From Caulobacter sp. 32-67-35 (lineage in GTDB: Bacteria > Pseudomonadota > Alphaproteobacteria > Caulobacterales > Caulobacteraceae), in the NCBI GenBank assembly GCA_002280875.1, contig NCEV01000002.1, positions 1-64,000 on the forward strand: 64,000 bases of DNA. Direction: 5' to 3'. A program made the translations under genes and the position numbers. The notes beneath the pieces are model-generated. The model worked only from the letters and a program-made list of their open reading frames with translations. It made no database searches and was not told the DNA's origin. The stretch's first letter is position 1. Every line of letters starts with the position of its first letter. Shown in pieces: positions 4,070-10,908 of this stretch.

Positions 4070-6754
<2,685 letters not shown>

Positions 6755-6958: not shown

Positions 6959-7018
6959 TTGATTGGGATTTCGCGGATGGAGGGGGATCCGTAGTCGGAT
7001 AGATTTTGATTTGAGCTT

Positions 7019-7130
7019 CGTCATCCCGGGACTTGTTCCCGGGACCCACGGTTCAGCTTCACGACGCGGAATCATCCTGCTCCGCATCGCGGCGGATCGA
7101 TGGGCCCCGGGAACAAGTCCCGGGATGACG
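7019..7130. repeat. Long inverted repeat, left copy, flanking GIY-YIG gene
   Basis: A 25-bp arm at 7019-7043 is exactly inverted at 7106-7130, with about 62 bases between. Each arm is itself a small hairpin: CCCGGGA and TCCCGGG around a CTTGT loop. The element starts with GTCATCCC and belongs to the same family as 7525-7639. It ends 29 bases before the GIY-YIG start codon. Confidence 0.85.
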
Positions 7131-7159
7131 AAATCTATCTATAAGTGTATATTGGCGCA

Positions 7160-7486
7160 ATGGTCCCCAGAGACGCATCCATCGCCGTCTACATGATGAC
7201 CAACCAGCCCTATGGCACGCTCTATATCGGCGTCAGCAGTCAGTTCGAGGCCCGGTTGATCCAGCACCGCGAAGGCTTGAGGGATGGCTTCACCAAGAGC
7301 TAAGGCCTGACGCGCCTGGTCTGTTACGAAACCCACGAGGTCATGACGGTCGCGATCCGGCGGGAACGGAGAATGAAGGAATGGCCTCGGCAGTGGAAGA
7401 TCAACCTGCTCGAACGCGATAACCCGCGTTGGGATGACCTTTACGACGCCGTGCTGAACTGGACGCCGGTTCCGAGGCAGGTTTGA
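7160..7486 (+). pseudogene. GIY-YIG nuclease-like gene with one premature stop
   Basis: The frame from ATG 7160 reads MVPRDASIAVYMMTN, then GTLYIGVSSQFEARLIQHR and GFTKS. This is the GIY-YIG core, with VYMMTN for the first strand and LYIG for the YIG. TAA at 7301-7303 then interrupts it. The same frame continues without further stops to TGA 7484-7486, with GLTRLVCYE, RRERRMKEWPRQWK and NPRWDDLYD. These are the rest of the family's 90-110-residue domain. The stop sits where relatives usually have tyrosine (KKYG), so a single base change TAC/TAT to TAA explains it. Related hairpin repeats lie 29 bases before and 38 bases after the gene. Without the stop it would be a complete 108-residue nuclease. 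Confidence 0.85.
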
Positions 7487-7524
7487 AGGCGCCCGCGCTA
7501 TAAACCATGAAACCGCTATAAATA

Positions 7525-7639
7525 CCGTCATCCCGCGACGTGTTCGCGGGACCCATCTGTCCGCCGCAAGAACGGAGCAGGACGAGTACGTCAGCAAGAG
7601 CTGAACCATGGGTCCCGCGAACACGTCGCGGGATGACGG
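7525..7639. repeat. Long inverted repeat, right copy, flanking GIY-YIG gene
   Basis: A perfect 31-bp inverted repeat (7525-7555 with 7609-7639) has about 53 bases between its arms. Each arm contains a small hairpin, CCCGCGA and TCGCGGG around CGTGT. It matches the 7019-7130 element in GTCATCCC and GGGACCCA, but the inner stem differs by paired, compensating changes. It ends 21 bases before the glyS stop codon. Confidence 0.85.
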
Positions 7640-7660: not shown

Positions 7661-10003
7661 CTACCCCGCCACCAGCGAGAAGTCCGCCACCTGGCCCATG
7701 GCGTCGCGGACGGCGGCCAGGGTCTTCAACCGGTTGTCTCGTTCGGCCGCAACCTCGGAATTGACGAACACGCCGTCGAGGAAGGCGTCGACCGGGCCTC
7801 GCAGGCCGGCCAGTTCCTGCATCGCGCCGGTGAAGTCTTCCTTGGCCAAAGCCGCCGCCAGGGCCGGCTCGACCATGCGCAGGGCGTCGTAGAGGGCCGC
7901 TTCCGGCGCCGAGGCGTCGTCCAGCAGGCCGCGCTCGCCCTCGGCTTTCCAGCCCTTCTTCTCCTCGGCCTTGAGGATGTTGGAGGCGCGCTTGTAGCCG
8001 GCCAGCAGGTTCTTGCCGTCGTCGGTCTTCAGGAAGGCGTCCAGCGCCTCGACCCGGGCGACGATGCGCACGAGGTCGTCGTCGCCCAGAGCGAACACGG
8101 CGTCGACGAGGTCGTGGCGCTTGCCTTGGTCTTTGAGCAGGACCTTCAGGCGGTCGGCGAAGAAGGCGAGCAATTCAGCCTGCTTGTCTGGCAGATTATA
8201 GCTCTTCGCGAAAATCCGGTGATCCGAAAATGCCTTAGCGAAGGCTCCAGGGCTGAAGGACGAATATATGAAGACTGACGGGTGCAGATTAATTCCCGAC
8301 GTGATTCCAGTCTCACGGGATAAAGCTCGCATGTAGTCGAGCCCGTGGTGCTCAAGTAACTCACGGGCCTCTGATTGCTGGCTATCATCTAGCGACGCTA
8401 GCTTGGCGATCACCGGTTGTTCAGCGGCCATTCCTGCATCGACAGCAGCGGAAATAGCGCTACGCAGTGGCAGGCGAACACCATTCTCTAAGATCGTTCG
8501 GATGACTCCCAGCGATGATCGACGAAGCGCATAGGGGTCCTTTGATCCCGTCGGCTTCTCGTCGATTGCGAAGAACCCGACCAACGTGTCCAGCTTGTCG
8601 GCCAGCGCCACCGCCACGCTCAATGGGGCGGTCGGCACGGCATCAGACGGCCCTTGGGGCCGATAATGATGACCGATTGCATCCGCAACGATGATCGCCT
8701 GCTCTGCAGCGTTTCCTTGGCCAAGCTTGGGCTCATTCGATACACCTTGGGGACTTACGACCGCGAGGCCATTCTGGGCGCGATAGTAGTACCGACCCAT
8801 CAAGCCCTGGAGCTCAGGGAACTCGCTGACCATACCGGAGGCCAGGTCAGCCTTGGCCAACCGTGTGGCCTCTTTGGCCATTCCGACATCAGCACCCACG
8901 CGCGGAGCGATCTCGCCGGCCAAGGCAACGATGCGCTCCACGCGCTGGGCCATTGTTCCCAACTTAGCATGGAAGGTCACGCCGCTCAGCTTATCGAGCC
9001 AACCCTCAAAGGCGCCGGGCTTGCAGTCCTCGTCCCAGAAAAAGCGGGCGTCCGACAAGCGGGCCGACAGCACCTTGGCGTTGCCTTCGGCTATCACCTT
9101 ACCGCCGTCGGCGGCCTGGATGTTAGCGACTGTGATGAAGTGCGCGGCCAAGCCTGCTTCACCCTGCTTCTTCACCGCGAAGTACTTCTGGTGAGTCCGC
9201 ATCGAAGTGCGAATAACCTCGGGCGGCAGGTCAAGGAATGACGGATCCATGTCGCCCAGCACCGGGGTCGGCCATTCGGCCAGACCCGCGACTTCTTCCA
9301 GCAGGCCCAGGTCTTCGACCAGTTCCAGATTGCGGGCGAAGCACAGGGTCTTGCAGCCCTCGAGGATGCGCGCCTTGCGCTCCTCGACGTCCAGCACAAC
9401 GAAGTGGTCGTTCAGGCCCTTGGCGTATTCGTCGAAGTCGCGGACGCGGAAGGGCTGAGCGTCGCCCATGAACCGGTGGCCTTCAGAGATGTCGCTGCTC
9501 TCGATGCCCTCGATGCTGAACGGCACGATCTCGCGGTCGAAGACGCACAGGATGCGCTTCAGCGGGCGAACCCAGCGCAGCTTACACGTGCCCCAGGTCA
9601 TCGACTTGGGCCAGGCGAAGCCGCGCACGATGGCCTCCACCATCTCGGCGATGATCTCAGGTGTCGGGCGGCCGGTCTTCTCGATGAAGGCCATATAGAC
9701 GCCGTCGCGCTCGACCAGCTGGTCTTGCGTCAAGCCCGCCTTGCGCAGGAAGCCTTCCATGGCCTGCGGCGGCGCGCCGACGCGGGGCCCCTTCAGCTCT
9801 TCCTTGCGGTCAGCCTGGGCGATGGGCAGGCCCTCGACCACCAGGGTCAGGCGGCGCGGACCGGCGAAGGTCTTCAGGGCCTCAGGCAGGAAGCCGGCGG
9901 CGGCCAGGTGCTCGCGCGCCATGCGTTCCAGGTCGCGCGCCGCATTGGCCTGCATGCGCGCGGGGATTTCTTCGGAGAACAGTTCGAGGAGAAGTTGGGG
10001 CAT
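7661..10003 (-). CDS. glyS: Glycine--tRNA ligase, beta subunit
   Basis: The 780-residue beta chain belongs to the bacterial alpha2-beta2 glycyl-tRNA synthetase and contributes tRNA binding. It begins MPQLLLELFSEEIPARMQ, the family's typical N-terminus, and carries an HD-like segment and a C-terminal anticodon-binding region. ATG 10003 is chosen over an upstream start because it gives this N-terminus and follows the glyQ stop by 5 bases. The middle part (about 8190-9200) differs in composition from the rest: 8221-8340 is 50% GC by my count, against 67% at 9421-9480. It encodes a stretch including ETGITSGINLHPSVFIYSSF that I do not recall from relatives. The frame is intact. Confidence 0.95.
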   Translation of the reverse strand: MPQLLLELFSEEIPARMQANAARDLERMAREHLAAAGFLPEALKTFAGPRRLTLVVEGLPIAQADRKEELKGPRVGAPPQAMEGFLRKAGLTQDQLVERDGVYMAFIEKTGRPTPEIIAEMVEAIVRGFAWPKSMTWGTCKLRWVRPLKRILCVFDREIVPFSIEGIESSDISEGHRFMGDAQPFRVRDFDEYAKGLNDHFVVLDVEERKARILEGCKTLCFARNLELVEDLGLLEEVAGLAEWPTPVLGDMDPSFLDLPPEVIRTSMRTHQKYFAVKKQGEAGLAAHFITVANIQAADGGKVIAEGNAKVLSARLSDARFFWDEDCKPGAFEGWLDKLSGVTFHAKLGTMAQRVERIVALAGEIAPRVGADVGMAKEATRLAKADLASGMVSEFPELQGLMGRYYYRAQNGLAVVSPQGVSNEPKLGQGNAAEQAIIVADAIGHHYRPQGPSDAVPTAPLSVAVALADKLDTLVGFFAIDEKPTGSKDPYALRRSSLGVIRTILENGVRLPLRSAISAAVDAGMAAEQPVIAKLASLDDSQQSEARELLEHHGLDYMRALSRETGITSGINLHPSVFIYSSFSPGAFAKAFSDHRIFAKSYNLPDKQAELLAFFADRLKVLLKDQGKRHDLVDAVFALGDDDLVRIVARVEALDAFLKTDDGKNLLAGYKRASNILKAEEKKGWKAEGERGLLDDASAPEAALYDALRMVEPALAAALAKEDFTGAMQELAGLRGPVDAFLDGVFVNSEVAAERDNRLKTLAAVRDAMGQVADFSLVAG

Positions 10004-10008
10004 CTGAC

Positions 10009-10908
10009 TTACGCGGCTTCCTGCTGCTTCACCCACTCGGAGGCGCACATCTTACAAAGGTCGCGGATGCGTCCGATGTAGCTGGCGCGCTCGGCGACGG
10101 CGATCGCGCCGCGGGCGTTCATCAGGTTGAAAAGGTGGCTGGCCTTGAGGACCATGTCGTAGGCCGGCAGGACCAGTGACTTGCCCTGATAGTCGCGGGC
10201 CAGCATCAGCGGGACCTGGCGCTCCATGTCCTCGAACTGGCCCTTCAGCACGGCCACATCATAGCCGTGGAAATTGGCTTCGGAGTGCTGGCGCTCGTTT
10301 TCCAGGAACACGTCGCCATAGGTCATGGCGCCCAGCGGCGAGTCGGGGTCGTTGAACGGCAGGTCATAGACGTTGTCGACGCCGAACACGTACATCGCCA
10401 GGCGTTCCAGGCCGTAGGTCAGCTCGCCGGCCACCGGCGAGACGTCCAGGCCGCCCACCTGCTGGAAGTAGGTGTATTGCGACACCTCCATGCCGTCGCA
10501 CCAGACTTCCCAGCCCAGACCCCAGGCGCCGACGGTGGGGTTTTCCCAGTCGTCCTCGACAAAGCGGATGTCGTGCAGGCGCAGGTCCAGGCCGATGGCT
10601 TCCAGCGAGCCCAGATAAAGGTCCTGCATGTTGGGCGGGTTGGGCTTCAGGATCACCTGGTACTGATAATAGTGCTGCAGCCGGTTGGGGTTCTCGCCAT
10701 AGCGCCCGTCGCCCGGACGGCGCGAGGGCTGCACATAGGCCGCGTTCCAGGGCTTCGGACCGAGCGCCCGCAGCACCGTGGCCGGGTGCAGGGTCCCCGC
10801 CCCCACCTCGATGTCGTGCGGCTGCAGGATCGCGCAGCCATGTTCGCTCCAATAGTTATGGAGCGTCAGGATCAGGGCTTGAAACGAGGTGGGCTTGGGG
10901 CGCGACAT
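10009..10908 (-). CDS. glyQ: Glycine--tRNA ligase, alpha subunit
   Basis: The 299-residue catalytic subunit charges tRNA-Gly with glycine using ATP. It shows the family blocks [36 protein letters not shown] and [21 protein letters not shown] near the N-terminus. ATG 10908 gives the family-type start [10 protein letters not shown]. An upstream in-frame start at 10971 would run into the terminator of the next gene. It forms an operon with glyS, which starts 5 bases after its stop, in the usual glyQ-glyS order. Confidence 0.97.

Follow-up and report, generated by a model that had tools for sequence, protein, structure and literature searches.

The 64,000-nucleotide stretch of the Caulobacter sp. 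32-67-35 genome analyzed in the present study (contig NCEV01000002.1; the whole stretch is referred to below as the window) carries a short, stand-alone GIY-YIG nuclease gene lying between two pairs of inverted hairpins. This locus is probably the decayed remnant of a small system with two components, a nuclease of approximately 108 amino acids and the family of tagged hairpins belonging to it. Short GIY-YIG genes are strongly linked to tagged hairpins. A nuclease of this kind and its cognate hairpins likely work in the manner of repetitive extragenic palindromes (REPs) and REP-associated tyrosine transposases (RAYTs), with an unrelated GIY-YIG enzyme in the place of the HUH transposase. The initial annotation of this DNA had proposed such a REP/RAYT-like layout with a GIY-YIG enzyme, and the proposal is supported by the present data: a search of the window's own genome for the Y1 transposase domain of RAYTs (PF01797) gave no match, and 15 of the 61 genomes sampled from the genus have one.

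Association of short GIY-YIG genes with hairpins in Caulobacter

The genus sample comprised 61 Caulobacter genomes, from which 112 of at least about 136 short GIY-YIG genes, together with 8 UvrC genes, were taken with up to 4 kb of flanking sequence in each direction, as far as the contig extended; the omitted genes were located mostly on short contigs or at contig ends. The gene type represented in the window is designated V (with its AT subclade included in the counts of 46 genes), and S designates its sister type. A CGTC hairpin was present within 400 bp of 37 of the 46 V genes, compared to 1/46 S genes, 1/20 genes of the other short types, and 1/8 UvrC genes (Fisher's test for V versus S plus other, 1e-18). 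Around the V genes, 100 hairpins were located in 36.8 kb of near sequence (2.72/kb) versus 24 in 322 kb of far sequence (0.075/kb). The hairpins are more common at these genes than elsewhere, and the distribution that would have refuted the initial annotation, with no link to GIY-YIG genes, was not observed.

Application of a looser GTCAT pattern gave 39/47 for V (the window gene being counted), 3/46 for S, 0/20 for the other types, and 1/8 for UvrC. At the same time, the S genes are accompanied by hairpins of their own type, which were detected at 44/46 S genes and at none of the 47 V genes (window counted), 20 other genes, and 8 UvrC genes. A third tag, of the GCCTT type, was found at all six AT genes, at 3/45 S genes and 1/41 V genes, and at none of the remaining types. 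Note that inspection of the loci preceded the choice of the motifs for the S-type, GCCTT, SH, and CT hairpins, so the pattern-free test and the tree described below carry more weight.

In the pattern-free test, a repeat common to both 300-bp flanks of a gene was accepted at a score of at least 40, a threshold fixed after earlier inspection. Such a repeat was found for 57 of the 112 short genes (window counted), for none of 441 pseudo-genes at the same loci, and for none of the eight UvrC genes. Divided by type, the counts were 16/41 for V, 31/45 for S, 5/6 for CT (one CT gene with too short a flank was dropped), 2/9 for SH, 3/6 for AT, and 0/5 for D. The zero counts at pseudo-genes and UvrC genes also led to the rejection of chance and of terminators as the source of the flank-to-flank repeats. 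That the hairpins are ordinary transcription terminators beside a small gene is extremely improbable. Terminators would agree with their being intergenic stem-loops, and REPs are reported to lie mostly downstream of coding regions (Di Nocera et al. 2013, PMC3733652), but the tags, the head-to-head pairs, the dispersed copies, and a class specific to the nuclease clade all argue against this explanation.

Two other flank-repeat families were seen among the short genes: CCTTCGACAGGCTCAGGATGA near three of nine SH genes (L087, L114) and CATCCTGAGGAGC near three of seven CT genes (L049, L081, L085).

Hairpin class and the nuclease tree

When the hairpin classes of 89 labelled proteins were placed on a 92-protein tree, 13 changes of class were required, compared to a mean of 51.6 after shuffling, with none of 200 shuffles as low; this tree is built on few columns, 35 of its 89 forks are open, near-copies aid the clustering, and the labels of L124 and L125, which look like artefacts (hairpins read on the opposite strand), were kept in the count. 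The division between short and long GTCAT hairpins needs two changes. The classes located within 400 bp of the nuclease clades were GTCAT-short, GTCAT-long, GCCTT, GCTCA, and other CCCA-tailed hairpins. In the single genome G032, several of the nuclease clades are represented, and the hairpins at their genes are of the GTCAT-long, GTCAT-short, GCCTT, CTCA, and other CCCA classes; several clades, each with its own hairpins in a single genome, indicate that the class tracks the gene and not the genome.

This correspondence also bears on the idea that the hairpins are moved by another enzyme (a RAYT or an insertion sequence) and that the GIY-YIG genes are present by chance or as cargo. The abundance of hairpins in some genomes without a V gene (such as G041) is what would be expected of such a passenger, but the agreement of hairpin class with nuclease clade and the lack of a Y1 transposase match in 46 of the 61 genomes, the window's genome among them, make a passenger role quite improbable. 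A RAYT was considered separately as the mover and was rejected, there being no match in the own genome and a GTCAT hairpin within 600 bp at one of the ten RAYT loci examined (of 22 matches listed), this one hairpin being chance-like.

Hairpin structure and possible mode of recognition

All four arms fold singly as DNA hairpins (−8.3 to −10.2 kcal/mol, z −1.5 to −3.5), and the hairpins have the CGTC-REP form, with an 8-bp stem, a 5-nt loop, and a CCC[AC] tail. The pair formed by positions 11 and 21 of the 30-mer is G..C in one hairpin class of the window and C..G in the other, and a single base of the loop differs as well. The paired changes in the inner stems described earlier for this locus are thus confirmed. 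Among 21 distinct hairpins of the window's length class, 168/168 pair cells are standard and seven of the eight pairs have changed on both sides, compared to 21–60% paired in slid controls, although this set was obtained largely with a hairpin finder and is biased towards pairing. The GTCAT tag is invariant over the 21 sequences, which were themselves selected by it. Eight distinct 29-mers from the own genome, collected with a pattern that places no constraint on the inner bases and so has less pairing bias, contain paired changes at two of the four inner pairs, the other two being unchanged, together with one unpaired A-C. In general, the hairpin families conserve the tag, the structure, and the tail, and the stem letters vary in pairs.

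Since each nuclease class is matched by its own hairpin class, and since the tag is constant and the stem letters are free to vary, a folded single strand may be recognised by its tag and shape. The nuclease might bind the hairpin as single-stranded DNA via the unpaired tag and the stem and nick it when it is exposed during replication or DNA uptake; repair or recombination with other copies could then spread the hairpin pairs and, occasionally, the nuclease cassette. We infer both the cutting of the hairpins and a movement driven by the nuclease. If the nuclease does drive the spread, an HUH transposase is not the sole route to REP-type repeats. The clade-by-clade match of nuclease and tag names a candidate enzyme for the CGTC REPs, and it also yields ready nuclease–hairpin pairs for assay, as well as several small nucleases whose predicted targets differ from one another.

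The locus in the window and hairpin copies in its genome

Both flanks of the gene consist of the same hairpin-spacer-hairpin unit in mutually inverted copies (Table 1). The upstream inverted repeat is perfect over 25 bp, or 27 bp counting TT/AA at its flanks, and its full arms (7017–7057 and 7092–7132) are 41 nt long and 88% complementary; the downstream arms (7525–7556 and 7608–7639) are 32 nt long and 100% complementary. The 25-bp and 31-bp inverted repeats noted in the initial annotation are thus both present, the second being 32 nt, and the distances between the hairpins and the gene, about 29 nt and 38 nt, had been given correctly. The placement of a GIY-YIG gene between the hairpins also stands, but the in-frame TAA had been overlooked: with a stop at codon 48, the window copy is broken and cannot encode the complete protein, except in the case that the TAA arose as an error of sequencing. 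Comparison of the translation with the alignment of relatives demonstrated that, the TAA aside, the positions invariant among intact relatives are largely kept. A GAATC (GANTC) sequence is located at 7069–7073, within the spacer of the upstream pair.

Table 1 Features of the GIY-YIG locus in the window and its neighbouring genes
Feature	Position	Strand	Description
Upstream hairpin pair	7019..7131	+	Hairpin 7019–7048 (+), spacer, hairpin 7101–7130 (−); CGTC tag, 8-bp stem, 5-nt loop, CCCA-type tail
GIY-YIG nuclease gene, stand-alone	7160..7486	+	108 codons plus stop; PF01541 at 4.2e-10; one TAA
In-frame TAA, codon 48 of the GIY-YIG gene	7301..7303	+	Tyr at this position in at least 90% of 34 aligned relatives
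Downstream hairpin pair	7526..7638	−	Hairpins 7526–7555 (+) and 7609–7638 (−); inverted copy of the upstream 113-bp unit
Putative ppdK	4070..6754	−	Neighbour outside the unit; presumably pyruvate phosphate dikinase
Putative glyS	7661..10048	−	Neighbour outside the unit, anchor for the site comparison; presumably glycyl-tRNA synthetase beta subunit

In the complete 4.1-Mb genome, the strict hairpin pattern was matched by 26 copies versus none with the pattern reversed. Three of these copies are located at the GIY-YIG gene of the window; the rest of the 64-kb window, like the rest of its contig, has no strict copy. The short class forms eight head-to-head pairs of 111–114 bp in this genome. The search for GIY-YIG genes in the same genome gave four matches at E ≤ 1, of which three are short genes and one is taken by us to be UvrC. 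Each of the three short genes has hairpins on at least one side (on both sides of the window gene, downstream of the C138 gene, and upstream of the C13 gene), and the three genes have three different hairpin classes. Most hairpins of a genome are located away from GIY-YIG genes, which is comparable to the location of REPs away from RAYTs.

Relocation and sites without the gene

Gene pairs with at least 80% amino acid identity and no common outer flanks numbered 69, of which eight were within a single genome, and homology stopped no more than 20 bp from the outer hairpin edge at 42/62 upstream and 38/55 downstream boundaries; these pairs are not independent of one another, and the choice of pairs without common flanks limits the extents to about 470 bp. 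None of the eight same-genome S pairs at this level of identity share flanks. The mobile unit suggested in the initial annotation is supported by these related genes at unrelated sites, in which the common DNA frequently stops close to the edges of the hairpins.

Two V genes, L077 and L090, are 98% identical and have in common a segment of ~1.29 kb, which is located upstream in one and downstream in the other and on the same strand relative to the gene, i.e., the unit occurs on opposite sides of one segment.

Comparison with close relatives provided two places at which the gene is missing. At the L050 site, a complete hairpin pair is present in genome G056 (93% identical), and 13 bp replace the 328 bp that contain the gene; at the same site, G020 has an S-type pair, and G005 has no such hairpin. 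At the L125 site, one pair with a truncated second hairpin was found in G056 (95% identical here), G005 has a pair in the opposite orientation, and G010 and G022 have none. A third comparison of this kind (L056) was not clean, since the relative lacks more than the unit. The presence of a hairpin pair without the gene in a close relative at two sites likewise supports movement as a unit.

In G020, an S-type pair without a gene was observed (L236, ~1330–1430) where G022 and G010 hold a V gene, so two hairpin families use one intergenic place.

Free-standing homing endonucleases insert by repair from a gene-bearing copy. GIY-YIG homing, in which the nuclease would cut gene-free hairpin pairs and repair from a gene-bearing copy would insert the cassette, could explain both the gene-free pair in a close relative at two sites and the position of the cassette between or beside hairpins. 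We consider this explanation unlikely: the sites number only two, deletion fits them equally, and in the other relatives the same place is occupied by hairpins of another type, by a pair in inverted orientation, or by no hairpin.

At the window's own site, a GIY-YIG gene stands beside glyS in at least 6 of the 61 genomes, as surveyed by tblastn for 30 loci and by coordinates among the matches listed for the remainder. The genes at this site in G043 and G045 are 81% and 67% identical, respectively, to the window gene. In G006, one hairpin was seen by eye at the glyS site, where no gene was found by tblastn, and the closest relative of the window gene in that genome (83%) is located at another place.

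Another explanation is a domesticated host enzyme that serves DNA uptake, repair, or regulation at its hairpins without moving them. The hairpins beside the gene would then be an autoregulatory or landing site, and relocation would occur by homologous recombination between dispersed hairpins. This is a possible reading, although we hold it with reserve. It is in agreement with the reported role of the Ssn nucleases (see below) in natural transformation of Neisseria, with hairpin counts that do not clearly track the gene, and with the single pair found where the gene is missing, as recombination between the flanking pairs would leave. The patchy presence of the genes, the broken copies, and the occurrence of one subclade several times in a genome, at sites unrelated to one another, argue against it.

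Several observations weigh against a nuclease-and-hairpin system that moves as a unit, and the dependence among the 69 gene pairs and the limit on their extents given above are among them. CGTC hairpins are present on both sides of just 19 of the 46 V genes, nine of the 46 lack the first CGTC pattern, and the SH and D types display little flank repeat in the pattern-free test. The window gene and its nearest relative, L132, have the gene alone in common and not the hairpins. The presence of genes at the glyS site in at least six genomes would fit old presence followed by loss as well, and the differences at the compared sites may reflect either gain or loss. The number of hairpins per genome did not differ clearly with the presence of a V gene (median of 42 in the 30 genomes with it versus 21 in the 31 without, p 0.11, V genes outside the fetched set being scored as absent). 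Finally, genome G041, in which we observed 109 strict CGTC hairpins, has no V gene and a single GIY-YIG match (E 1.2e-7) among the matches listed, which indicates that hairpins persist without the gene.

The nine V genes lacking the first CGTC pattern include six AT genes with the GCCTT tag, one gene with variant GTCAT hairpins, and two unlabelled genes. At one of the latter, L093, a hairpin pair of another tag was seen by eye.

Spread across the phylum

Across the phylum, 299 genomes were searched, and 86 of them have a match to the nuclease family. The 29 best-scoring loci outside the own genome were tested, and an open reading frame was called in 26 of them and none in the remaining three. 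A hairpin was located within 400 bp at 20 of the 26 loci by the stricter pattern. The looser GTCAT pattern gave 26/26, with 3.95/kb near versus 0.268/kb far, i.e., with a higher background. GTCAT hairpins are present at 15 of 25 named loci, and a flank-to-flank repeat of another kind at a further 8, loci binned as Bacteroidetes, Acidiferrales, and Torokbacteria being among them; 2 have neither. Since several of the named loci are metagenome bins, the organism names may be wrong.

In Caulobacter vibrioides OR37 (L274), the V gene diverges from its kin after ~35 residues and stops at 83, and thus looks frameshifted; five hairpins are located nearby.

Comparison with known systems

In the 2013 survey, CGTC REPs are described as having a CGTC or TGTC tag, a stem of 8–9 bp, a loop of 4–5 nt, and a CCA-type tail, and as being arranged mostly in head-to-head pairs, mainly in alphaproteobacteria, with the Neisseria dRS3 repeat corresponding to CGTC-1 (Di Nocera et al. 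2013, PMC3733652). According to the same survey, they are found in all alphaproteobacterial orders, apparently without a dedicated transposase, and the way in which they spread was left open for want of an enzyme (PMC3733652). The window hairpins are similar to these REPs in tag, stem, loop, tail, dispersal, and head-to-head pairing. The differences are that the hairpins are linked here to a GIY-YIG gene family and that the loops of the long GTCAT hairpins exceed the published range.

The enzyme groups of REP-RAYT systems are reported to have co-evolved with their REPs (PMC8266576). The present loci resemble these systems (REPtrons, TnpA-REP) in that an enzyme gene is flanked by dispersed tagged hairpins, and they differ in having a GIY-YIG (PF01541) enzyme rather than an HUH/Y1 enzyme and CGTC and other tags rather than GTAG. 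It may be, although we would put this at somewhat less than an even chance, that stand-alone GIY-YIG nucleases constitute a second, independent REP-type class, in which each clade owns its tagged hairpins and cutting spreads both the pairs and the cassette. Were this the case, the CGTC REPs would gain the dedicated enzyme that they were said to lack, and GIY-YIG enzymes would be the source of many of the short palindromic repeats found in alphaproteobacteria and in other phyla.

A search of the literature by titles and abstract openings found, among the papers listed, none tying GIY-YIG nucleases to REP-type repeats. At the same time, the Ssn enzymes, reportedly described by Chenal and colleagues in Nat Commun in 2025, are said to be GIY-YIG nucleases specific for single-stranded DNA repeats. 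They are reported to be short and stand-alone, with a repeated target in Neisseria and many homologues that have their own targets; the focus of that study is said to be on single-strand cutting, and Ssn reportedly modulates natural transformation in Neisseria. That study probably covers the pairing of nuclease and repeat. The relatives analyzed here are likewise short stand-alone GIY-YIG proteins with putative catalytic residues, and the window copy is broken. What was measured here beside the reported properties of Ssn is the relocation of the gene together with its hairpins and the match of subclade and tag within one genus.

The UPF0213 proteins are also small single-domain GIY-YIG proteins, to which a weak fold match was obtained (1zg2); we know of no target hairpin for them.

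The Caulobacter CIR repeats are said to have been described by Chen and Shapiro in 2003. In a later source, they are given as repeats of about 110 bp composed of two inverted-repeat arms and a linker, with a GANTC site (PMC2229807). The window unit is alike in layout by this description (113 bp, paired arms, and GAATC in the spacer of the upstream pair).

The nuclease protein

As called, and with broken ones counted, 75 of the 92 V, S, and AT proteins are 90–110 amino acids long, and PF01541 was the sole domain in the three relatives scanned. The residues Y11, Y22, G24, R32, H36, E69, and N88, which we take to be GIY-YIG active-site positions, are invariant over 34 aligned rows. The intact relative L132 gave a confident predicted model, with a pLDDT (predicted local distance difference test score) of 88.9. 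A sequence search of the PDB with L132 found no chain at E 0.1, and none of the matches in the fold search with its model reached E 0.001. The best fold matches were weak and were to GIY-YIG proteins, namely UPF0213 (1zg2, E 1.9e-3) and Slx1, with UvrC being weaker. Additionally, two SH-type genes, L116 and L144, both in G030, were observed to stop at the same Trp position, codon 8, with TGA in both.
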